Virus record (IMG/VR): IMGVR_UViG_3300025759_000434 | Location: 1 to 30,678 of that record | Length of the DNA: 30,678 bases | Source of the DNA: a virus | Strand: one strand, 5' to 3' | Part shown: one piece after another, positions 10,390-22,547 of the stretch | Numbering within the stretch: the stretch's first letter is position 1 | Layout of the letters: every line of letters begins with the position of its first letter | Notes under the pieces: model-generated | Told to the model about the DNA's origin: nothing | Seen by the model: the letters and a program-made list of their open reading frames with translations, nothing else | Database searches by the model: none | Program-made: the position numbers and the translations under genes

Positions 10390-12645
10390 GTGGCAGTCGA
10401 GTCCTCTGTACGCCTTAGGGTTGATGGCAGCAGTGCTGTCCGTGAACTTAATCGCGTTAACAAGGCCACTGGGGCCTTGCAGGGGGCAGTTGGAAAATTA
10501 CTTGGCGGGTTTGCCGCTGCTGATCTCGCTAGGCGTTTTTTCAAAGGTTTTGCAGAGGCAGAAAAAGCAGCCGCAGCGGTTCGCACATTAGGAGTCGATT
10601 CGGGGAAGCTACGCCGTGAGCTTTTAGGTGTAAGCAATGAACTTGGGGGCCTAATAGGTCAAACGGAGTTAACTGCGGCTGCTTACGACGTGGCATCTGC
10701 TGGATTTACAAATGCGGCTGCTGCCGCCAATGTTCTTAAGGCTGCTAGCCTCGGGGCTATAGGAGGCCTTGCAGATCTCAACACAGTTGCAGACGCGACA
10801 ACCTCTGTTCTTAATGCTTACGGGTTGAGTTCAGACAAGGCCGCGAAGTTAGTTGATGGATTTATACAAACCCAAAACGACGGTAAAATTATCGTTGCGC
10901 AGTACGCTGCACAAATTGGTCGCGTAGCTCCTGTCGCAGCTGCTGCTGGTGTAGGTATTGAAGACCTCAACGCAGCGATCTCAACAGTTACGGCGCAAGG
11001 TGTTCCTGTTGAGTCGACCTTCGCTGGTATTCGGCAAATTATTGCAGGTGTTTTGAAACCGACCGCTGAAGCGGCAAAGGTTGCGAAAACGCTAGGGATT
11101 GAATTTAACACTGCTGCTATTAAGGCCAAAGGTTTTGGCGGTTTTCTTGCTGACGTTGTTGAAAAGACCGGGGGCAGTGAAACTGCTCTTACGCAGCTAT
11201 TCGGAAGCGTAGAGGCAATCAGCGCGTTGCTGCCTCTTACAAATGACGGACTTGTTACTTTTAACAAGAACCTTGACAATCAAGCAAATTCAGCGGGTGC
11301 GGCAAAAGACGCAACTAAAGAGCTTGGCGGCACTGTAACTTCTCAAGTTACAAAAATAGTAAACAATATAGGCAACGTTGCTAGGGCATTAGACACAGTT
11401 CTTGGGCCTGCCCTGAAGTTTATTTTACAGGATCTAAATAACATTATTTCCGCCGCTTCAACGGCAATTAGTAAGTTCACTGATCTTGCAACAGGCGCTC
11501 TTAGTAGATCAGCAGCAGCATTGCAGTTTGCCGCAAGCACTGGCACTACAAGCGAAAGTGCATTCACTTCGCTCAAAGAGGCGATTGGGACTTTGCGCCC
11601 GGAGTTGGCACAGTCTGAAACTGATCTTTTAAAGCTAGAAGGTGCTCTTGACGAAGCAGGCAGGGCTGCGTTGAGGTTTAGCGGGAAAAGTGATTTTGGC
11701 AGATTGCGCAATGAAGTATTAGACACAATCACTGCAATGCGTCAGTTAATTGTCAATAGACGTGAGGCTTTAGGAAAAGGATCACAACCTGCAGGCACTG
11801 CACCTGCTGGGACAGATCCAGAGGTCGAAGCATTACGAGCAAGAATCGAAGCACTGCTTGCTCAAGTAAACAGCAAAAGTGGCGCTAAAACACCAGAGCA
11901 AATTGCAGCTGACGCACTTAAAGATCAGCAAGAACGTGCTAAACAATTTTTGCATACTAAAAAACAAGAGGCTCTCTTAACGGGCAACATTACTGATAAG
12001 CAACGGCGTGGGCTAGAACATGTAATAGAAAAAATGAACCTTAGTAGGATGTTCCCGAAGCTGTCAGAAGACGAGCTGCAAGTTTTGCGAGATCAGCTCG
12101 ATGTTAATTTCAATCTATCGGAGAAAGACAGAGAAAGAATTGCAGCGGCGAAGCTTCTAAAACAAGAGCAAGACGAGCAGTTGCGGCAATACAGAGAGAT
12201 GGCAGATGTAATTGAGAACGGGATTAAGGGTGCAATCATGGGCGCGATCGACGGCAGCAAATCACTAGGCGAATCCTTGTCCGGCATCCTGCGCCAGCTT
12301 GGCGGGATGTTCCTAAACAAGGGCATCGGGTCCTTTAAAAACCAAGACGGGACAGGCGGCTCTGGAGTTCTTGGGATGTTTGCCAATGGTGGTCGCCCGC
12401 CTGTTGGCCGTCCTTCAATCGTTGGTGAGCGTGGCCCTGAGCTGTTTGTCCCAAGCCGTGCAGGCACGATCATTCCGAATCATGAGCTAGGCGGCAGCAC
12501 CAGCGTTGTTGTCAACGTTGATGCTTCTGGCACTGAGGTCCAGGGCAACCAAGGCAACGCAGATCAGCTCGGCCGCTTGATTGGTCAGGCAGTGCAGGCA
12601 GAATTGATTAAACAGAAGCGGCCTGGAGGACTTCTTACACGCTGA
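10390..12645 (+). CDS. Tape measure protein
   Basis: A 751-residue Ala/Gly/Lys-rich protein and the longest helical protein in the tail module. Residues about 55-270 carry the phage tail tape measure core (PhageMin_Tail-like), with SAGFTNAAAAANVLKAAS and the VAQYAAQIGRVAPVAAAAG segment. Residues 340-600 are coiled-coil helices. Near 670-690 is the usual GERGPELFVPS segment, and the C-terminus is the VVVNVDASG strand plus helix seen in tape measures. No lysozyme or peptidase domain is visible. It starts with GTG 26 bases after the frameshifted chaperone frame. From the common rule of about 1.5 angstrom per residue the tail would be roughly 110 nm (inference). Confidence 0.88.
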   Translation: MAVESSVRLRVDGSSAVRELNRVNKATGALQGAVGKLLGGFAAADLARRFFKGFAEAEKAAAAVRTLGVDSGKLRRELLGVSNELGGLIGQTELTAAAYDVASAGFTNAAAAANVLKAASLGAIGGLADLNTVADATTSVLNAYGLSSDKAAKLVDGFIQTQNDGKIIVAQYAAQIGRVAPVAAAAGVGIEDLNAAISTVTAQGVPVESTFAGIRQIIAGVLKPTAEAAKVAKTLGIEFNTAAIKAKGFGGFLADVVEKTGGSETALTQLFGSVEAISALLPLTNDGLVTFNKNLDNQANSAGAAKDATKELGGTVTSQVTKIVNNIGNVARALDTVLGPALKFILQDLNNIISAASTAISKFTDLATGALSRSAAALQFAASTGTTSESAFTSLKEAIGTLRPELAQSETDLLKLEGALDEAGRAALRFSGKSDFGRLRNEVLDTITAMRQLIVNRREALGKGSQPAGTAPAGTDPEVEALRARIEALLAQVNSKSGAKTPEQIAADALKDQQERAKQFLHTKKQEALLTGNITDKQRRGLEHVIEKMNLSRMFPKLSEDELQVLRDQLDVNFNLSEKDRERIAAAKLLKQEQDEQLRQYREMADVIENGIKGAIMGAIDGSKSLGESLSGILRQLGGMFLNKGIGSFKNQDGTGGSGVLGMFANGGRPPVGRPSIVGERGPELFVPSRAGTIIPNHELGGSTSVVVNVDASGTEVQGNQGNADQLGRLIGQAVQAELIKQKRPGGLLTR

Positions 12646-12983
12646 TGGCTACTTTCCCTTCAATCAACCCGACTTACGGGGCAAGCAAGCGCAGTCAGCC
12701 GACTGTGCGGAATGTGCAGTTCGGTGACGGCTATAGCCAGCGCCTGCGCTTTGGGTTGAATACTGATCTAAAGACTTGGAGCCTGAAGTTTGAGGTGTCA
12801 GAGACTGACGCCGACACCATTGAAACCTTCCTTGAAGCTCGTGGCGGAGCGGAACACTTTGACTGGTCGCCACCGGATGAAACTGAGACTTACAAGTGGA
12901 TTTGCCAAGACTGGTCTAAGTCCATACCGTATTTGAACAGGGCAACGATCACAGCGACGTTCCAAGAAGTTATTGAGCCATGA
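12645..12983 (+). CDS. Minor tail protein, lambda gpM-like
   Basis: A 112-residue protein with the gpM/Phage_min_tail pattern: FGDGYSQRLRFGLNTDLKTW near the start (residues 26-45), then FLEARGGAEHFDWSPP and the closing YLNRATITATFQEV strand. In lambda gpM joins the tail tip between tape measure and gpL, and here it sits in exactly that place. It shares one base with the tape measure stop and overlaps gpL by four bases. Confidence 0.85.
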   Translation: MATFPSINPTYGASKRSQPTVRNVQFGDGYSQRLRFGLNTDLKTWSLKFEVSETDADTIETFLEARGGAEHFDWSPPDETETYKWICQDWSKSIPYLNRATITATFQEVIEP

Positions 12984-14686
12984 GCACTGCTTTTGTTGAG
13001 CTACTCAACTCCGGCCCTTTTGCAATCATTGAGCTGTTTGAGCTGAAGCTGTTTCAAGATCTGCACGGCTCTAATGAGGAGTATTACTTTCACGCAGGCC
13101 GGAATCGTAAGACGACCGTGCCAAGCAACGCAGATGACATCCTTGATGCTTTCTCTATCAAATACGGCGGTCAGGCTTACATCCCGCTGCCGGTAGAGGC
13201 ATCAGGGTTCGAGTTCAACGGTGATGGCACGCTGCCTAGGCCGACGATTCGCTTTGCGAACCTGCAGAGCCAGATGACAGCATTGCTGTTGGGCATTAAT
13301 CAAATCACCCCTGGCAATGACCTTTCTGGCGCACGGGTGACAAGGATCCGCACTCTTAGCCGTTTTCTAGATAGCGATAACTGGGAGAACGGCGTTAATC
13401 CTTACGGCAACCCTGACTCTGGAGCAAACGCGCAACTGCCTAAAGAGACGTATTACATCGACCGCAAGGTTTCCGAAAACAGGGACTTTGTTGAGTTTGA
13501 GCTTGTGTCGTCCTTTGATATGGCGAACACAAAAGCTCCGCGTCGTCTTGTGATGCAGAACTTGTGTCAGTGGGAATACAAGAGCAAGGAATGTGGTTAC
13601 ACCGGCTCTGATGAGTTCACCATCAACGGCGTGGCGCTTTCGCGCTCTAATGCGACCGGCTTTGGTTATTCAACAAACCAAGAAAAACTGACTACCGGCT
13701 CAGAGTTGACGGAGGGCAATGCGCTGGTCTCCACTAATGGTTGGTTCATCGCAAAGGTTCAGGCCGATGGCAATTTTGTAATCTACAAAAAGCCAGGTGG
13801 ATCCTCAGATCATTCGGTTTGGAGGACGGGGACAGAACGTGGCACAAATACAAATGGCTATACCTTGAAAATGCAGCCTGATGGCAACCTTGTTCTTTAT
13901 AACGACGACGTTGCCCGCAATGACTACGCAGGCGGCTCTGTTGTTTGGGGTACTAAGACACATGAACTTGGGCAGATCTCCGCATTGACTCGCCTTAGCG
14001 TTGATGGCACTGACCAGTGGTATCCGCCTGATGTAGAGATCGGGCGCTCAGGGGCTTTTACTTGGGAGATCAAAGGCAGCAGCCCCTCAGCTGCAGGACA
14101 GACAACAACAGCCACGCACAATTTTGTAGATGCAGACCATGAGTTCGGCAGTCGCTCCGTCAACGTCACGTTTAACTTGACCTCAATCGCCATTCCTGCG
14201 GACCATTACTCAAAAGATCACAGCAATTACACGGGCTTTGGTTGGAACACAATTACAGGCATCACAATCAACAGTCAGACAGGCTTTTGGCGGAACAGCG
14301 AAGATTTTGTATTGAAAATTGCTCTGACCAGCAATAATCCTTTTGCGTCTAACCATCCGACAGAAGGCACGCTGCAAGAGGCTGGCGCTGGTTACAAGGT
14401 CACAGCAACTGGGCACACCACCAGGCAGCTGCGTCTCAAAGATGATGGCGTTCTTGTTCTTGAAAACTCCGATGGCAGCAACGCTGTATGGACCTCCGAC
14501 AATGCACCAATCACAAGTGAGCCAGCAGTCGTCACAGGGACGACGACGCCGATTGAGGTTTCAGGTCAATGCGGCAAAACAATCCGCGACTGCCGTCTTC
14601 ATTTCACCAATGACGATGGCTCTATTGGTGACGCAAACGGTGGACTGCCGTTTGGGTCGTTCCCTGCTGTCGGTCTAAACAACTGA
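12980..14686 (+). CDS. Minor tail protein gpL-like with inserted bulb-type lectin domain
   Basis: A 568-residue protein, more than twice the length of lambda gpL (about 230). Residues 1-195 are the gpL tip body. Its cluster-binding domain has the cysteine pairs C-x8-C (Cys196, Cys205) and C-x6-C (Cys531, Cys538), the spacing I recall for the 4Fe-4S ligands of gpL. About 325 residues separate the pairs, where lambda has about 22. The insert holds a bulb-type (mannose-binding) lectin: two intact Q-x-D-x-N-x-V-x-Y sites, QADGNFVIY (261-269) and QPDGNLVLY (299-307), each followed by a strand with Trp (WRTGT, VVWGT). A degenerate third site, LKDDGVLVLE, lies near 486-495. Residues 330-465 between the second and third sites are unrecognised and beta-rich. 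gpL call strong, lectin call strong by motif. Confidence 0.88.
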   Translation: MSTAFVELLNSGPFAIIELFELKLFQDLHGSNEEYYFHAGRNRKTTVPSNADDILDAFSIKYGGQAYIPLPVEASGFEFNGDGTLPRPTIRFANLQSQMTALLLGINQITPGNDLSGARVTRIRTLSRFLDSDNWENGVNPYGNPDSGANAQLPKETYYIDRKVSENRDFVEFELVSSFDMANTKAPRRLVMQNLCQWEYKSKECGYTGSDEFTINGVALSRSNATGFGYSTNQEKLTTGSELTEGNALVSTNGWFIAKVQADGNFVIYKKPGGSSDHSVWRTGTERGTNTNGYTLKMQPDGNLVLYNDDVARNDYAGGSVVWGTKTHELGQISALTRLSVDGTDQWYPPDVEIGRSGAFTWEIKGSSPSAAGQTTTATHNFVDADHEFGSRSVNVTFNLTSIAIPADHYSKDHSNYTGFGWNTITGITINSQTGFWRNSEDFVLKIALTSNNPFASNHPTEGTLQEAGAGYKVTATGHTTRQLRLKDDGVLVLENSDGSNAVWTSDNAPITSEPAVVTGTTTPIEVSGQCGKTIRDCRLHFTNDDGSIGDANGGLPFGSFPAVGLNN

Positions 14687-15035: not shown

Positions 15036-15671
15036 GTGACGGCAATGCTTCGCAAAATCAGGCTGTATGGGCACCTGGCGGAGCACTGCGGTCAGAAAGT
15101 CTTTGAGGCAGTAGCAAGGACACCGGCTGAAGCCATTCGGTTTCTTTTGTGTAACTTCCCTGAGCTGCGCTCAATCATGGGCACTGGGTATTACACCGTC
15201 ACCGTAGGCCCGCACACTTTGCAGCTGGGACAGTCTCTAGAGCAGCTGACTTACCCGTTAATGGCTGATGACGACATCAGAATTATTCCTGTTGTGACCG
15301 GCGCAAATAGATTTCTTCGGAATTTGGCGTTCATCGCTTTAGGTGCCGCCTTGGTCGGCTTAGCAATAGTTACCTCAGGGGTCAGCGTTGGCTTGACTGG
15401 TTTTTCTGCTGGAACAGGTGCAACGGCTGGCGTGCAGGCAGCAGCGTTTGCAGGGAACATCGGAATTGGACTGGCTTTAACCGGCGTTGCCGGTTTGTTG
15501 TCGCCCACAGTGCCTACGCCTGATACCGACAACGATCCACGTAACAACTTCAGCTTTTCCGGCGTGCAAAACACCAACCGAGAAGGCGTTCCGGTTCCGA
15601 TTGCCTATGGAGAGGTGATTGTCGGTAGTGTTGTTGTATCGGCTGGCTTGAACGTCGAGGAGCTTGAGTAA
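15036..15671 (+). CDS. Tail assembly protein gpI-like
   Basis: A 211-residue protein. The first 90 residues form a ubiquitin-like fold of the lambda tail assembly I family (KIRLYGHLAEHCGQKVFEAV, then LMADDDIRIIPVV). Two hydrophobic stretches follow (about residues 97-115 and 140-160). The last part, FSFSGVQNTNREGVPVPIAYGE, is the conserved segment that leads to the gpJ-binding end. I choose the GTG at 15036 because GAGGG lies 8 bases upstream. The ATG at 15045 is a possible alternative. Its stop overlaps the gpJ start by one base. Confidence 0.8.
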   Translation: MTAMLRKIRLYGHLAEHCGQKVFEAVARTPAEAIRFLLCNFPELRSIMGTGYYTVTVGPHTLQLGQSLEQLTYPLMADDDIRIIPVVTGANRFLRNLAFIALGAALVGLAIVTSGVSVGLTGFSAGTGATAGVQAAAFAGNIGIGLALTGVAGLLSPTVPTPDTDNDPRNNFSFSGVQNTNREGVPVPIAYGEVIVGSVVVSAGLNVEELE

Positions 15672-18600
15672 TGCCCAAAGATGAACTGAATTCAAGACAG
15701 GTTGCCAGGATTATTGACTTGGTAAGCGAGGGCGAAATCCAAGGTTTTCCATCTGCCAGTGGCTTGACCGTTGGCACTGATGCCTACCACTTAGCGTCTC
15801 TTAAAGACACCTTTTTCAACAACACCCCTGTGTTAGGTGCTAGCGCAACGGTAACATCTGGCAGCACTCTCAAAGATGCAAATATTGTCGAACAAATGAA
15901 CTTTGACATGCGTGACTCTAAGGTCGAGAGTCGCCTAGGCACGCAAAGTCAAAGCTATCTTGAGAACATTGGCGATACCACTCAAAGCACAGTTCTCGTA
16001 GGGGCTGAACTTACAAAAGCGAATATTGGCGATAATGAGGGCAATTTTTTCCTTTATGGCGGTTCTACAAATAGAACTACCGAGAAGGTGGCGGTGGGAG
16101 CAACTGCAACACCTGTTACGCGTCAAATAACTGATACCGACGTAACAAGCGTTCGTATCACGGTTGGTTCCCCATCGATGACGGTTGCAAAGGATGATGG
16201 CAGGGTCAGGGGCGTTCAGATCCAATACAAAGTAGAAATCCAATACAAGGGAGGTGGGTTTAACCCTGTTGACTTCGGTGATTTTGAAAATTACAGCAGT
16301 TATTTAGGTAACGGTGACTTTATTCTCCAAGGATATTCCCCCGATCTATATCAACGAAGGCATCTTATTGTTTTTGACGAGGACAAAATACGTGCAGGGA
16401 CGGCTTTCCCTGTTGATATTAGGCTAACAAGGCTTGGCCATGAATTTCATAATGACACAGTAGCTATTGCAGATGATTTAATTTGGTATGACTTAACACT
16501 AAAAGTAGGCGAAAAAACGCGATACCCAAATAGTGCTTTAGTTGGTTTAAAATTTAATGCTGAGCAATTCCCTAGCATCCCGCAGCGTAGTTACAGGATA
16601 CGCGGCATCAAAGTGCGCATCCCGCACAACGCAACAGTGCAAAGTGATGGCTCGTTGCAATACTCAGGGACATTCAACGGCACGTTAAAAACGACAAAGG
16701 AATGGACAACAGATCCCCCGTTTATACTTTACGACTTGTTGACATCAACTAGGTACGGATTAGGCTCTCAAGTTCTCACGCCAGAAGAGCGAGCTAAAGA
16801 CGTTGCAGGTACCTTTAACGGCGCCTCTGATACTGCTAGCAATCTTGATTTATATAGTTTCAAAAAGGCTAGTGAATACTGCGGCGGGTTGGTTGGCGAT
16901 GGCGCTGGAGGGCAAGAGCCGCGTTTTAGCTGCAACGTGCTTTTACAAACTCAACAAGACGCTTTTAAGTTAATTGAGGAAATGTGCTCTGTATTCAGGG
17001 CAATGCCTTTCTGGGAGGTTGGTGGCATCACTGTCGCTCAGGACGCTCCTGACGTGTTTGCTTATACGTTCAACCAATCCAACGTCACTCAAGCTGGGTT
17101 TAGTTATTCAGGATCAAGCCTTAAAAATCGACCGACATGCGTTTCTGTTAAATACTTCGACAACGACTTAAGAGACTTTGCTTACGAGTTGGTTGAGCTA
17201 GCTGAAACATCGTTCAAGCCGGTAAGAAAGTACGGCTATAACAAGCAAAATATCACAGCCTTTGCCTGCACTAGCCGAGGGCAGGCCCGTCGGCTTGGCC
17301 TTTGGTTTCTTTACTCGGCACACAACGAAACTGAAATTTGCAGCTTTGAAACTGATATTGCTGCAGGCATCACTGTCCGGCCAGGGGATTTAATTAAGAT
17401 CGGTGATCCCGTCCGTGCTGGCAAAACCGTCGCGGGTCGCATTACTTCTGGCTCAACAACGACAGCAGTCAAGCTAGACCGCAGCGACGTGGACATGTTT
17501 GGCGCCCAAGCGCCAAGCACTTTCACGCTCAACGTTATCACTGAAGGCAGGAATGACGACGGCTCAGCCAAGACTGATCCAAGAACAGGCGCGTTGGTTT
17601 ATGAGGTTCAAGCTATTGCCGGTTCAACGATTGTTGGCAACACAGTCACCCCTGGCGAGACCTTAAATAGTGCGCCTGTTGCTGGCTCTGCGTTTGCTAT
17701 TGGCTATGACGGCTTAGCCCTAAGCCTCTGGCGTGTTCTTAGCGTTGTTGAAAACGAGTCAACTTATGGAATTACTGCTTTAGCGCACGCAAGGGACAAG
17801 TATTCAGTTATTGAGGCAAGCCATACATTTACGCCGCGTGATGTTACACAATTAGCTGAAAAGCCAGATCCTGTAACTAACCTGCAGCTTCAGGAAATTC
17901 TTTATGAAGAGGGCGACAAGGTTCTTCAGCGTGTCGCGGTCAACTGGCAGCAGTCGCCACGAGCAAATGAGTATGAAGTTGAATTCAAACTTGATAATGA
18001 CAACCTACAGAGACATGTTGTAACGACAACAGGCTTTGACATTATGGATAGCCAAAGGGGCGTCTATGAAGTCAGAGTTTCTGCTATTGGTTACGGCCTA
18101 GATGTAGCGCAAACAGGCAAGCGGCGTTCGTCTCCAACAGTTGCCACTATCACCACTGTCGGCAAAAGCACGCCACCTAGCAACATCGCTAGCCTCAACA
18201 TCACACCAATCGACCAACACACCGCTGAGCTGCATTGGCCTGAAGCAGCCGATCTTGATGTCAAAATTGGCGGCACGATTGAGATCCGCCACAACCCGCG
18301 AACTACTGGTGACATCAAATGGTCGCAGTCAGAAAAGATTGTCCCAGCTGTCAACGGCAGCTCAACCAGAAAAATTGTTCCTTTGTTGAGTGGGCACTAC
18401 CTTGTTCGCGCAAAAGATTCTGTTGACAACTATGCACCGTTGACAGGCATCCCCACAGCTTTAGTTGAGCTGCCAGAGCCGCAAGACCTTGAGGTTGTCC
18501 AGACCTACACCGAAAGCCCCAACTTCACTGGCACGTTTTCGCAGGCGTTCAACAGCACAACAGAAGGCGGCATCACGCTAGAAGCTGACGGCAAGATCGA

Positions 18601-19258
18601 TGAAATCACCGACTTTGACAGCGTCACCAACATTGATTTCTTTGGTGATGTGGTCTCGGTCGGTAGCTACATCTTTGCCAATACGCTTGACCTTGGCGCG
18701 AAGTATGACGTCGAGCTGTTAGCCAACCTGAAGATCAACACGATCAACCCTGACGATTTCTGGGATTCGCGGTCAGACAACATCGACACCTGGAACGACA
18801 TCGACGCTGACGACCTGTCGGAGACCAACGCTGAGCTGTACTCAAGGTCTACCAATGACAACCCCAGTGGTTCGCCTACCTATGGAACTTGGGAGCCATT
18901 TGCCAACTCCACAAAGCGTGGGCGTGGGTTCCAGTTCAAGGTTGAGATGGAAACCTCTAACGACTCACAGGACGTTGTGGTGCAAACCCTTGGCGTGTCG
19001 GTGAAGCTGCAACGCCGCACAGAGCAGCAGCGCAACATCAGCAGCGGCACCGGAGCAAAGGCGGTGACGTTCCCATCTGCCTTCTACAGCACGCCAAGCA
19101 TTACGATCACGGCGACCAACATGGCAACGGGTGATTTCTTTGAACTGAGCAGTGTGAGCAGGACTGGCTTCACCATTACGTTCAAGTCATCTGGCGGTAG
19201 CATTGTGAGCAGGAACTTTGATTATCAAGCCGTCGGGCACGGCAAGGAGATCACCTAA
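15671..19258 (+). CDS. Tail tip/host-specificity protein, gpJ-like
   Basis: A 1195-residue protein, close to lambda J (1132). The N-terminus IDLVSEGEIQGFPS and FFNNTPVL is the TipJ signature, and the conserved central tail-tip domains follow (RSYRIRGIKVRIPHN, then PPFILYDLLTSTRYGLG). About 730-825 and 835-935 read as two fibronectin type III domains (for example NEYEVEFKLDN, HYLVRAKDSVDNYAP). The end (residues 1115-1195: FPSAFYSTPSITITATNM and GFTITFKSSGG) is a small beta domain common at phage tip C-termini. The first two thirds look much richer in A/T than the last third, a possible module boundary. It is the central host-contact protein of the tip. Confidence 0.88.
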   Translation: MPKDELNSRQVARIIDLVSEGEIQGFPSASGLTVGTDAYHLASLKDTFFNNTPVLGASATVTSGSTLKDANIVEQMNFDMRDSKVESRLGTQSQSYLENIGDTTQSTVLVGAELTKANIGDNEGNFFLYGGSTNRTTEKVAVGATATPVTRQITDTDVTSVRITVGSPSMTVAKDDGRVRGVQIQYKVEIQYKGGGFNPVDFGDFENYSSYLGNGDFILQGYSPDLYQRRHLIVFDEDKIRAGTAFPVDIRLTRLGHEFHNDTVAIADDLIWYDLTLKVGEKTRYPNSALVGLKFNAEQFPSIPQRSYRIRGIKVRIPHNATVQSDGSLQYSGTFNGTLKTTKEWTTDPPFILYDLLTSTRYGLGSQVLTPEERAKDVAGTFNGASDTASNLDLYSFKKASEYCGGLVGDGAGGQEPRFSCNVLLQTQQDAFKLIEEMCSVFRAMPFWEVGGITVAQDAPDVFAYTFNQSNVTQAGFSYSGSSLKNRPTCVSVKYFDNDLRDFAYELVELAETSFKPVRKYGYNKQNITAFACTSRGQARRLGLWFLYSAHNETEICSFETDIAAGITVRPGDLIKIGDPVRAGKTVAGRITSGSTTTAVKLDRSDVDMFGAQAPSTFTLNVITEGRNDDGSAKTDPRTGALVYEVQAIAGSTIVGNTVTPGETLNSAPVAGSAFAIGYDGLALSLWRVLSVVENESTYGITALAHARDKYSVIEASHTFTPRDVTQLAEKPDPVTNLQLQEILYEEGDKVLQRVAVNWQQSPRANEYEVEFKLDNDNLQRHVVTTTGFDIMDSQRGVYEVRVSAIGYGLDVAQTGKRRSSPTVATITTVGKSTPPSNIASLNITPIDQHTAELHWPEAADLDVKIGGTIEIRHNPRTTGDIKWSQSEKIVPAVNGSSTRKIVPLLSGHYLVRAKDSVDNYAPLTGIPTALVELPEPQDLEVVQTYTESPNFTGTFSQAFNSTTEGGITLEADGKIDEITDFDSVTNIDFFGDVVSVGSYIFANTLDLGAKYDVELLANLKINTINPDDFWDSRSDNIDTWNDIDADDLSETNAELYSRSTNDNPSGSPTYGTWEPFANSTKRGRGFQFKVEMETSNDSQDVVVQTLGVSVKLQRRTEQQRNISSGTGAKAVTFPSAFYSTPSITITATNMATGDFFELSSVSRTGFTITFKSSGGSIVSRNFDYQAVGHGKEIT

Positions 19259-20079
19259 TGTCTCAAGCTGTTGACTATTCGCTCGCTAACCAAAGCGGCA
19301 GTGCATTCCGTACTGAGCTGAACTCAATTCTTGGTGCGATCCAAACGCTTAACAGCGGGTCATCAGCGCCGGGCAACCTAGTTGCTCACATGGTGTTTTT
19401 AGACACCAGCACCACCCCGGCCACGCTCAAGATACGCAATGCCGCAAATGATGGGTTCATCGTTCTAGGTACTGCATCCACGAACTTCGGTCTGGTCAGC
19501 GCATCTGGTGCAACCTTTACGGGTGACATCACGCTGAACGCTCGTTCAGATGTGCGCTTCGCTGACGCAGATAGCAGCAACTATGTGGCCTTGGAGGCCC
19601 CCGCCACAATCTCGTCTAACTACACGCTGACCCTCCCAGCGGCTGACGGCAGCGCGAATCAGGCACTGAAGACTGATGGCTCTGGTGCGCTTGGCTTTGC
19701 ATCCTTCCTGCTTGCCACTGAAACCACGAATGGTCAGGTCGTTACGGGCGGTGTGCGTGGAGCGATTACAACGCTGACCGATGCGTCAACGATTGCTGTT
19801 GACATGGATGACAACAACAACTTTCTGGTGACGCTGGCTGGCAACAGAACACTAGGCAACCCCACAAATGTTGTCGAAGGACAGACCGGATTTATTGAGG
19901 TAATTCAGGACGGCACCGGGAGTAGAACACTCAGCTATTCGTCGAACTATCGCTTTGTTGGCGGAACTGCGCCGACGCTGACAACGACAGCTAGTGCAAA
20001 AGATGTGCTGGCGTATGCGGTGCTATCTGACGAGAAGATTATGATCACAGCACACCTGGACGTTAAGGCTGCTTCCTGA
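19258..20079 (+). CDS. Tail fibre protein
   Basis: A 273-residue protein immediately after the tip protein. It begins with a helical segment (SAFRTELNSILGAIQTLNSG) followed by repeated beta-strand units rich in Thr/Ala/Ser/Asn. The unit at residues 100-140 (VRFADADSSNYVALEAPATI, then YTLTLPAADGSANQALKTDG) is a trimeric fibre repeat I remember from many marine phage fibres. The C-terminal part is a small beta domain. It probably forms or attaches a short side fibre. No intramolecular chaperone triad was identified. The sequence suggests a GC-rich, regular composition unlike the next gene. Confidence 0.72.
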   Translation: MSQAVDYSLANQSGSAFRTELNSILGAIQTLNSGSSAPGNLVAHMVFLDTSTTPATLKIRNAANDGFIVLGTASTNFGLVSASGATFTGDITLNARSDVRFADADSSNYVALEAPATISSNYTLTLPAADGSANQALKTDGSGALGFASFLLATETTNGQVVTGGVRGAITTLTDASTIAVDMDDNNNFLVTLAGNRTLGNPTNVVEGQTGFIEVIQDGTGSRTLSYSSNYRFVGGTAPTLTTTASAKDVLAYAVLSDEKIMITAHLDVKAAS

Positions 20080-22547
20080 TGACAGTTCCCGGTAATCTTT
20101 CTTCCCCTCTGCTTGCAACTGCTGCTGCGGCTGGTGCTGCTGCTGCAGGGCCGATAAAATCGCTGCGTTTCAACAACAGTGATAGTGCAAATTTAAGTAG
20201 AACTTTTAGCTCTGCAGGCAATCGCAGGACGTGGACTTGGAGCGGCTGGGTAAAGCGCGGCAAACTAGGTACTGGCAAGTACTCGTTGTTTGGCGGAAGC
20301 GGCACTAACTCCATGATTCGTTTTAACAATGATGATGGAGGCGATAATCTTAGGGTTCTCGATGCAGCAACCGGTGGATACGATGTAATTACTAACAGAA
20401 AATTTCGTGACACAAGTGCTTGGTATCACTTTGTGGTCGCAGTTGACACGACTCAGTCTACAGCAGCAGACAGGGTAAAAATATACATTAATGGAGTACA
20501 GGAGACATCGTTCTTTTCATCTTCCTATCCAACGCAAAACGCAGAACTTACTTTCAACAACAATATCTCGCACACGATTGGTTACGCTCCGGGCAGCACT
20601 TATCACGACGGCCTAATGGCCGACATTTACTTTATTGACGGCTCTGCGCTTGACCCCACATCATTTGGGGCGTTTGACGATAACGGCGTCTGGCAAGCTA
20701 TCGGCTATTCGGGCACATATGGTACGAACGGAGCCCATCTGCTGGATTTTGCTAATGAGTCAACAGTAGGTCACGATTCAAGCGGTAATAACAACGACTT
20801 TACGGCGAACAACATCAGCACGACTGCAGGCGCAGGCAACGACGTTCTGTTTGACGTACCAACGAACGGCACGCAATCAGACTCCGGTGCCGGGGGAGAA
20901 GTCTCAGGGAATTATCCGACATTCAACCCACTCTCTCAGCAATACGAAACGGCTCATCATGTGCTTGTTAATGGCAACCTTCAGCATGGTGACGGTAGTT
21001 CGGAAAAAGGAAATTATGCCTTAGATATTTCAACGATCGCTGCTCCGCCATCAGGCAAATGGTTTTGGGAGATGACTACGGACGGTAATGGGACCAATGA
21101 GCGAAGAATGATTGCCATTATGGCGGCTGATGCAAATTTTGCTCAGTACATTCCGCATGACAACTCTACTGATGGGTTGGTAGGCATTTGGCTATTGACA
21201 GGTCAAAAAATTGTTAATGGAGTTAAGTCCAGCTATACGTCTTCTTTTCGTACGGGAAACACAGTTGGCGTTGCTCTTGATCAAGATAATCAGGCTGTAA
21301 ATTTCTATTTAAACGGAACAGCGTTAGGGTCTATATCATTACCGTCTAACATGCAAGGCAAATCAATCGTTGCTGCTGTAAGTTCTATTTACGAAGGAGA
21401 GAATATCATTGCAAACTTCGGCCAACGTGCCTGGGCCCATTCGGCTCCAAGCAATTACAAAGCACTTTGCACAACGAACCTCCCGACCCCGACGATTGCT
21501 AATAGTTCGGCTCATTTCAATGCAGTTACATATACCGGCAATAACACGGCTAGAAGTATCACCGGCGTCGGCCATAATCCTGACTGGGTCTGGATAAAAG
21601 ACAGGAGTTCTTCATACCATATACTTACAGATAGTGTTCGCGGTGTCGGCAAGCAACTCTATACAAACACTAATGATCCTGAAGCATCAATCACAGACCG
21701 ACTTACTTCATTTGACTCGGATGGTTTTTCTATAGCCGCCAATACATCTTCCGGCGGCGTTAATACTAACAATACACCGTATGTAGCATGGTGCTGGGAC
21801 GCCGGAACATCAACGGTCAGCAACACTGACGGCAGCATAACTTCTAGTGTTAGGGCAAATCAAACTGCTGGGTTCAGTATTGTTGCTTATACAGGAAATT
21901 TCACGGCTGGAGCTACAGTCGGACACGGATTAAACGCTAAACCTGAGTTTATTATTTTCAAAAACAGAAGCGGCACGATTAACTGGGGCGTATACAATTC
22001 CGCTATAGGGGCAACTAAGAAGCTCAGGATTAACAGCACTGAAGCAGCTTCAACCACTGGGCTTTTTGAAAACACAGAGCCTACATCTAGTGTCTTTTCA
22101 GTTGGGGACAGTAACTCAACCAATGGAAATGGCAACAACATGATCGCCTACTGCATATCACCCGTGGCCGGATTTTCTGCCGTTGGTTCGTACACCGGCA
22201 ATTCGGGCCAGAATTTCCAACACCTAGGCTTCCAGCCCAGATGGATAATGATTAAAACTACATCAATTACGGCTTACCCTGCTTACACGGGTTGGGCGAT
22301 ATTTGACACTGCAAGAGAGCCAGGCAATGTCAATGTAAACGCACTATTTGCAAACAGTACTCAAGCGGAAGGACTGCGTGGCAATGGCAGCAGTGCATCA
22401 GCTCCTGACTTTGGCATTGACATCTTGAGCAACGGGTTCTGCCTGCGAGATAATGGAGCGTCAGAAATAAACCTGAATGGGGAGGATTACATATATTTAG
22501 CGTTCGCGAGTAGCCCATTTTCTAACAATGGCGGGCTTGCTCGTTAA
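20079..22547 (+). CDS. Large receptor-binding-like protein with LamG, SPRY-like and three repeat domains
   Basis: An 822-residue protein. After a short Ala-rich linker, residues about 27-245 have a LamG/concanavalin-like sandwich pattern (KSLRFNNSDSANLSRTF, FTWSGWVKRG-type strand at 50-62, YHFVVAVDTT). Residues about 280-455 resemble a SPRY-type sandwich (GKWFWEM, FYLNGTALGSI). From 484 there are three copies of one module, each opening V/I/S-x-YTGN then HG/LG-x-x-P-x-x-x-I-x-K (483-510, 601-630, 703-727) and closing in an aromatic YVAWCWD, MIAYCIS or YLAFASS strand. I remember this combination in marine podovirus/siphovirus fibres. Codon use is A/T-richer than in the neighbours. Probably binds a host surface glycan. 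Confidence 0.7.
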   Translation: MTVPGNLSSPLLATAAAAGAAAAGPIKSLRFNNSDSANLSRTFSSAGNRRTWTWSGWVKRGKLGTGKYSLFGGSGTNSMIRFNNDDGGDNLRVLDAATGGYDVITNRKFRDTSAWYHFVVAVDTTQSTAADRVKIYINGVQETSFFSSSYPTQNAELTFNNNISHTIGYAPGSTYHDGLMADIYFIDGSALDPTSFGAFDDNGVWQAIGYSGTYGTNGAHLLDFANESTVGHDSSGNNNDFTANNISTTAGAGNDVLFDVPTNGTQSDSGAGGEVSGNYPTFNPLSQQYETAHHVLVNGNLQHGDGSSEKGNYALDISTIAAPPSGKWFWEMTTDGNGTNERRMIAIMAADANFAQYIPHDNSTDGLVGIWLLTGQKIVNGVKSSYTSSFRTGNTVGVALDQDNQAVNFYLNGTALGSISLPSNMQGKSIVAAVSSIYEGENIIANFGQRAWAHSAPSNYKALCTTNLPTPTIANSSAHFNAVTYTGNNTARSITGVGHNPDWVWIKDRSSSYHILTDSVRGVGKQLYTNTNDPEASITDRLTSFDSDGFSIAANTSSGGVNTNNTPYVAWCWDAGTSTVSNTDGSITSSVRANQTAGFSIVAYTGNFTAGATVGHGLNAKPEFIIFKNRSGTINWGVYNSAIGATKKLRINSTEAASTTGLFENTEPTSSVFSVGDSNSTNGNGNNMIAYCISPVAGFSAVGSYTGNSGQNFQHLGFQPRWIMIKTTSITAYPAYTGWAIFDTAREPGNVNVNALFANSTQAEGLRGNGSSASAPDFGIDILSNGFCLRDNGASEINLNGEDYIYLAFASSPFSNNGGLAR

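Follow-up and report, generated by a model that had tools for sequence, protein, structure and literature searches.

A lambda-type tail-tip protein gpL with a predicted bulb-type lectin and a nested exchangeable domain within its iron-sulphur domain

Lambda-type tail hubs and the gpL of the window

The tail-tip protein gpL of phage lambda (8iyk chain L) is composed of an HDI domain and of an iron-sulphur domain whose cysteines Cys173, Cys182, Cys205 and Cys212 form a C-x8-C and a C-x6-C pair separated by 22 residues (PMC10721106). The iron-sulphur domain sits on the outer surface of the tip and its role remains to be characterised (PMC10721106). A sugar-binding-type insert in the slot between the cysteine pairs is already known because the gpL-equivalent hubs of the Rhodobacter capsulatus gene transfer agent (RcGTA) and of roseophage R4C have one. 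In the RcGTA hub g13 an oligosaccharide-binding domain (residues 168-249) separates the two parts of the ion-binding domain (143-167 and 250-263), whose iron-sulphur cluster is visible in the cryo-EM map (PMC7296036). The R4C hub has the same arrangement with a cluster also seen by cryo-EM (PMC10276861).

The window is the whole stretch of DNA analysed here, a 30.7-kb virus record in which ORFs and profile searches define a lambda-type tail operon. The gene order M-L-K-I-J is that of lambda, with consecutive genes coding gpM (starting at 12645, PF05939), the tail-tip hub protein gpL (568 residues, 12980–14686, PF05100), gpK (starting at 14686, JAB domain), gpI (starting at 15036, phrog_32) and the central fibre gpJ (15671–19258). 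The separate L, K, I and J genes distinguish this phage from RcGTA and R4C, whose hubs are of the hub-megatron type. Its head genes are closest to those of cyanophage KBS-S-2A, Synechococcus phage S-H1 and Prochlorococcus phage MED4-184, with a major capsid protein 63-70% identical to theirs. The host is therefore likely a marine cyanobacterium, an assignment drawn only from these related structural genes.

The gpL assignment is given by profile matches to PF05100 (E 8.6e-37, 126.9 bits, cut-off 25) and TIGR01600 phage_tail_L (E 4e-39, 134.1 bits, cut-off 70.75), and by Foldseek, whose best match for the gpL model is lambda gpL (8iyk_L). All gpL features described here lie on the plus strand. 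Alignment to lambda gpL delimits the HDI beta-sandwich domain (residues 1-190, 12980–13549), the most strongly conserved part among relatives. It is followed by the first cysteine pair, C196/C205 (C-x8-C, 13565–13594), which matches lambda Cys173/Cys182 and belongs to the amino half of the iron-sulphur domain. The second pair, C531/C538 (C-x6-C), and the carboxyl terminal LPFGSFP tail (14564–14683) equal the carboxyl terminus of short gpLs, e.g., that of Synechococcus phage S-H1. The preliminary description of this DNA, made from its letters, had noted that both pairs are kept and that about 325 residues lie between them versus about 22 in lambda. The pairs are read directly in gpL, the count between C205 and C531 is 325 residues, and the lambda value agrees with the published structure.

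All four cysteines and their spacing are invariant in every complete relative aligned. When short gpLs like that of S-H1 (233 residues) are aligned to the window gpL, a clean gap spans the insert, which places it between the amino and carboxyl halves of the iron-sulphur domain. Both halves are poorly modelled by AlphaFold (pLDDT below 50), and the convergence of the cysteines is putative, as is a [4Fe-4S] cluster in the window gpL. The four cysteines of the RcGTA and R4C hubs hold a cluster in cryo-EM.

The predicted lectin and its nested domain X

The lectin starts near residue 232 and ends near residue 516. Its repeats 1 and 2 (residues 232-330, 13673–13969, pLDDT mostly 76-95) match PF01453 B_lectin and agglutinins. 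They carry two mannose-type sites, QADGNFVIY (residues 261-269, 13760–13786) and QPDGNLVLY (residues 299-307, 13874–13900), which are intact in 51 and 56 of 63 relatives, respectively, and both intact in 51 of them. Repeat 3 (residues 477-516, 14408–14527) corresponds to B_lectin positions 48-79 and to the third subdomain in the match to 1xd5_A described below. Its site (residues 487-495, 14438–14464) is degenerate, K-x-D-x-V-x-V-x-E. About a third of the relatives have LQxDGNLV(I/L/V)S or close to that at this position and only 1 of the 63 has the full motif, while the divergent relatives L322 and L371 have an intact QNDGNLVYY.

The B_lectin match of the whole protein (E 1.1e-6, 29.5 bits) lies just under the gathering score of 32.4, as expected because an insertion splits the domain; the 50-residue third repeat alone matches B_lectin positions 48-79 with E 0.013. 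Agglutinins and 4oit are found among PDB sequences (E about 1e-6 to 3e-8), and the insert of L322 matches a Mycobacterium lectin, pyocins L1 and L2 and putidacin L1 (E 1e-10 to 1e-12). A first AlphaFold model built with 31 closer relatives was poor (pLDDT 50) and was replaced by a final one built with 56 more diverse alignment rows, whose pLDDT is about 90 over residues 222-520. Foldseek aligned it to gastrodianin (1xd5_A) over 280 columns with a TM-score of 0.84 normalised by the 112-residue lectin, and pyocin L1 and putidacin L1 are also among its structural matches. The 1xd5_A match is read as joining all three subdomains of the model, residues 331-476 being apparently skipped. The insert is thus predicted to fold as a complete three-repeat beta-prism II lectin of the monocot/bacteriocin type.

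A bulb-type lectin between the cysteine pairs of a genuine gpL, as the preliminary description had proposed together with a B_lectin search and a structure model as checks, is borne out by these profile and agglutinin matches and by the model, which predicts a lectin-like fold and not a mere loop. The two intact Q-x-D-x-N-x-V-x-Y sites stand as described. The third site is degenerate here, as stated, but its sequence match identifies it as part of the real third repeat of the lectin.

Domain X (residues 331-476, 146 residues, 13970–14407) is a mostly-beta domain between repeats 2 and 3 with pLDDT mostly 74-96. It has no match in Pfam, PHROGs (none with E below 0.2) or PDB sequences. The segment after site 2 precedes a real third repeat and X is therefore nested within the lectin, itself nested in gpL. 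An unknown segment of about 130 residues had been recognised at this place; it is present, while its nesting inside the lectin and its exchange between phages had been missed. The exchange is seen between the phages L017 and L029, which are identical over gpL residues 1-211. Their DNA identity is 99-100% over HDI, drops to about 60% over X and returns to 89-99% up to the gene end. Compared part by part, the two gpLs are 100% identical in the backbone, 97% in the lectin and 61% in X. L025 and others display a similar swap, and every swapped X type is found with several backbones. Sequence comparison thus indicates that X is exchanged between phages independently of the rest of gpL. We weighed and dismissed an assembly artefact, since dozens of contigs share the architecture and a single misassembly would not place each X type on several backbones. 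The natural swaps provide ready-made comparison pairs. Note that the same phage pairs (L017 versus L029 and L025) show a second sharp drop of DNA identity roughly 2326-2476 bases downstream of the gpL start, apparently within gene I, which codes for the tip plug protein gpI.

The insert shares its three repeats and Q-x-D-x-N-x-V-x-Y sites with B-type lectins (GNA-like proteins, putidacin and pyocin L, PF01453) but differs from them by the 146 residues of X set between repeats 2 and 3, by its degenerate site 3 and by its location on a phage hub. Lambda gpL has no lectin. The RcGTA and R4C insert (about 82 residues) resembles the LKA1 tailspike insertion domain, not a beta-prism II lectin, and no second nested domain is described in it. 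The view that an insert of this kind is unprecedented is not supported, as these oligosaccharide-binding domains occupy the same slot and about 40% of sampled gpLs are long there. Literature searches for phage tail proteins that bear a bulb-type lectin returned nothing relevant; within the reach of these searches, the combination of such a lectin with an exchangeable domain nested in it is new.

About 60 distinct IMG/VR gpLs have the same lectin architecture. In IMG/VR, dozens of relatives were recovered at identities down to about 50%, and further scans added the divergent L322/L371 group; in sequences of the L371 type all three motifs are intact or almost so. Sites 1 and 2 are both degenerate in 7 of the 63 relatives (L038-L047 group), and site 1 is lost in the L128/L133/L136 group. 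The insert is kept in frame across dozens of independent contigs; dN/dS is about 0.1 in every part of it, a value indicating that it is under purifying selection. In a tree of the HDI part all lectin gpLs form one clade (97/86) beside the short gpLs, consistent with a single gain of the lectin among the sampled gpLs. Scans of genome contigs found no prophage or host copies, and tblastn of the insert alone against phage and plasmid records gave weak lectin-like matches and no isolate with a lectin gpL. The carriers are a family of uncultured marine phages, probably with cyanobacterial hosts.

In the same tail, the gpJ homologue (15671–19258) has a weak H-type lectin match at its carboxyl terminus (residues 1130-1181, E 7e-4), and given this match two kinds of lectin may be present on one tail. 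SPRY and DUF7483 domains occur in a large tail protein encoded directly after the tail operon (20079–22547).

A putative host-recognition appendage

We consider it probable that the protein is a lambda-type hub gpL bearing the lectin and its nested X as a surface host-recognition appendage with putative sugar binding. This is supported by the B_lectin and agglutinin matches, the model, the kept cysteines, the single clade, the swap of X, the dN/dS values, the RcGTA and R4C precedents and other gpLs with PA14 or CBM5/12-like modules in this slot. In lambda the iron-sulphur domain faces outward at the tip, so the appendage would most likely guide adsorption from the hub by way of glycans, X supplying the variable contact; exposure on the virion, an intact cluster, sugar binding and a role in adsorption are what we infer. 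The loop between the second and third cysteines would carry the appendage on the hub surface, with the iron-sulphur domain acting as a rigid socket. Mannose- or rhamnose-like sugars in the outer membrane or the capsule of the host, probably a cyanobacterium, would be the ligands of the lectin while the tip nears the membrane, and the exchanged X would contact a strain-variable surface structure. Such an appendage would be a candidate determinant of host range, separate from the usual fibres, in phages that are widespread and probably infect cyanobacteria. Note that in published LPS of marine Synechococcus glucose predominates and WH8102 has a single rhamnose (PMC4515613), which leaves no obvious mannose ligand. 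The relatives without sites 1 and 2 (7 of 63) and those without site 1 imply that canonical mannose binding is not essential throughout.

The degenerate sites also fit a lectin that is a mere scaffold whose sugar binding no longer matters and which presents X as the sole recogniser of a receptor, possibly a protein. Exchange of X on a nearly constant lectin and backbone in L029 versus L017 (61%, 97% and 100%), together with the relatives in which sites 1 and 2 are both degenerate and the single full site-3 motif among 63, speaks for such a scaffold. This reading is nevertheless unlikely: both sites stay intact in 51 of the 63 relatives, even at about 50% identity, a pattern suggestive of selection for binding, and the L371 type retains all three motifs or nearly so.

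We find it less probable still that weak and reversible sugar binding serves as a general adhesion aid, with specificity residing in gpJ and the downstream fibres. RcGTA was proposed to use 21 oligosaccharide-binding sites of its tail for capsule passage (PMC7296036), and the H_lectin-like gpJ terminus (E 7e-4), followed by the SPRY/DUF7483 protein, would suit such a division of labour, but exchange of X at the level of a module suggests specificity and not generic stickiness. It is very improbable that the surface loop merely tolerates the insert as neutral or parasitic sequence, although the loop takes many unrelated inserts, because the insert is under purifying selection throughout and is retained in many contigs down to 50% identity.

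The cysteine 2-3 loop in other gpLs

The recognition appendage that we favour has counterparts at the same place in other gpLs. Among the matches listed for the carboxyl terminal PFGGFPG motif 70 gpLs were parsed, which sample the family and do not amount to a census. Cysteines 2 and 3 are separated by at most 30 residues in 41 of these 70 (mode 22) and by more than 60 in 28 (about 40%); a search for other gpLs with long spacing had been suggested by the preliminary description. The loop insert is PA14 in L267 and a CBM5/12-like module in L284 and L325, others giving weaker assignments, and the close relatives L257 and L276 differ by one having an insert and the other none. An F5/8C-like domain follows the last cysteine in L254. 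Synechococcus phage S-CBS4 gp036 (465 residues) keeps the cysteines and, like the window gpL, has a long insert at this place; its about 250 residues, with helical-looking ends and an unknown part, are unrelated to the lectin.

The cysteine 2-3 loop looks like an insertion hotspot and general socket for host-recognition parts. A more tentative extension, which we regard as possible but doubtful, is that marine siphophages generally use it as a socket into which exchangeable glycan-binding modules fit. In the window gpL the module would have two levels, a lectin base and a swappable X that determines strain specificity at the hub, close to the membrane, and it may relay binding to the iron-sulphur domain as an ejection signal. 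Should receptor modules commonly dock in this loop, the iron-sulphur domain would gain a testable role as a rigid socket.

Variation at this end of gpL also includes reductions. The shortest loop seen, in L285 and L317, has 8 residues between cysteines 2 and 3. The gpLs of Prochlorococcus-type siphophages and relatives stop just after HDI ('..EFPSVGTFV') and have no iron-sulphur domain, an absence that may be connected with low-iron waters (NC_020847.1 33137-33709, which is L063:3483-4055; L061:3001-3993; L378, L379, L382, L384 and L385). The one from Marine virus AG-345-A17 (L061:3001-3993) has a separate insertion within HDI, flanked by threonine-rich borders.
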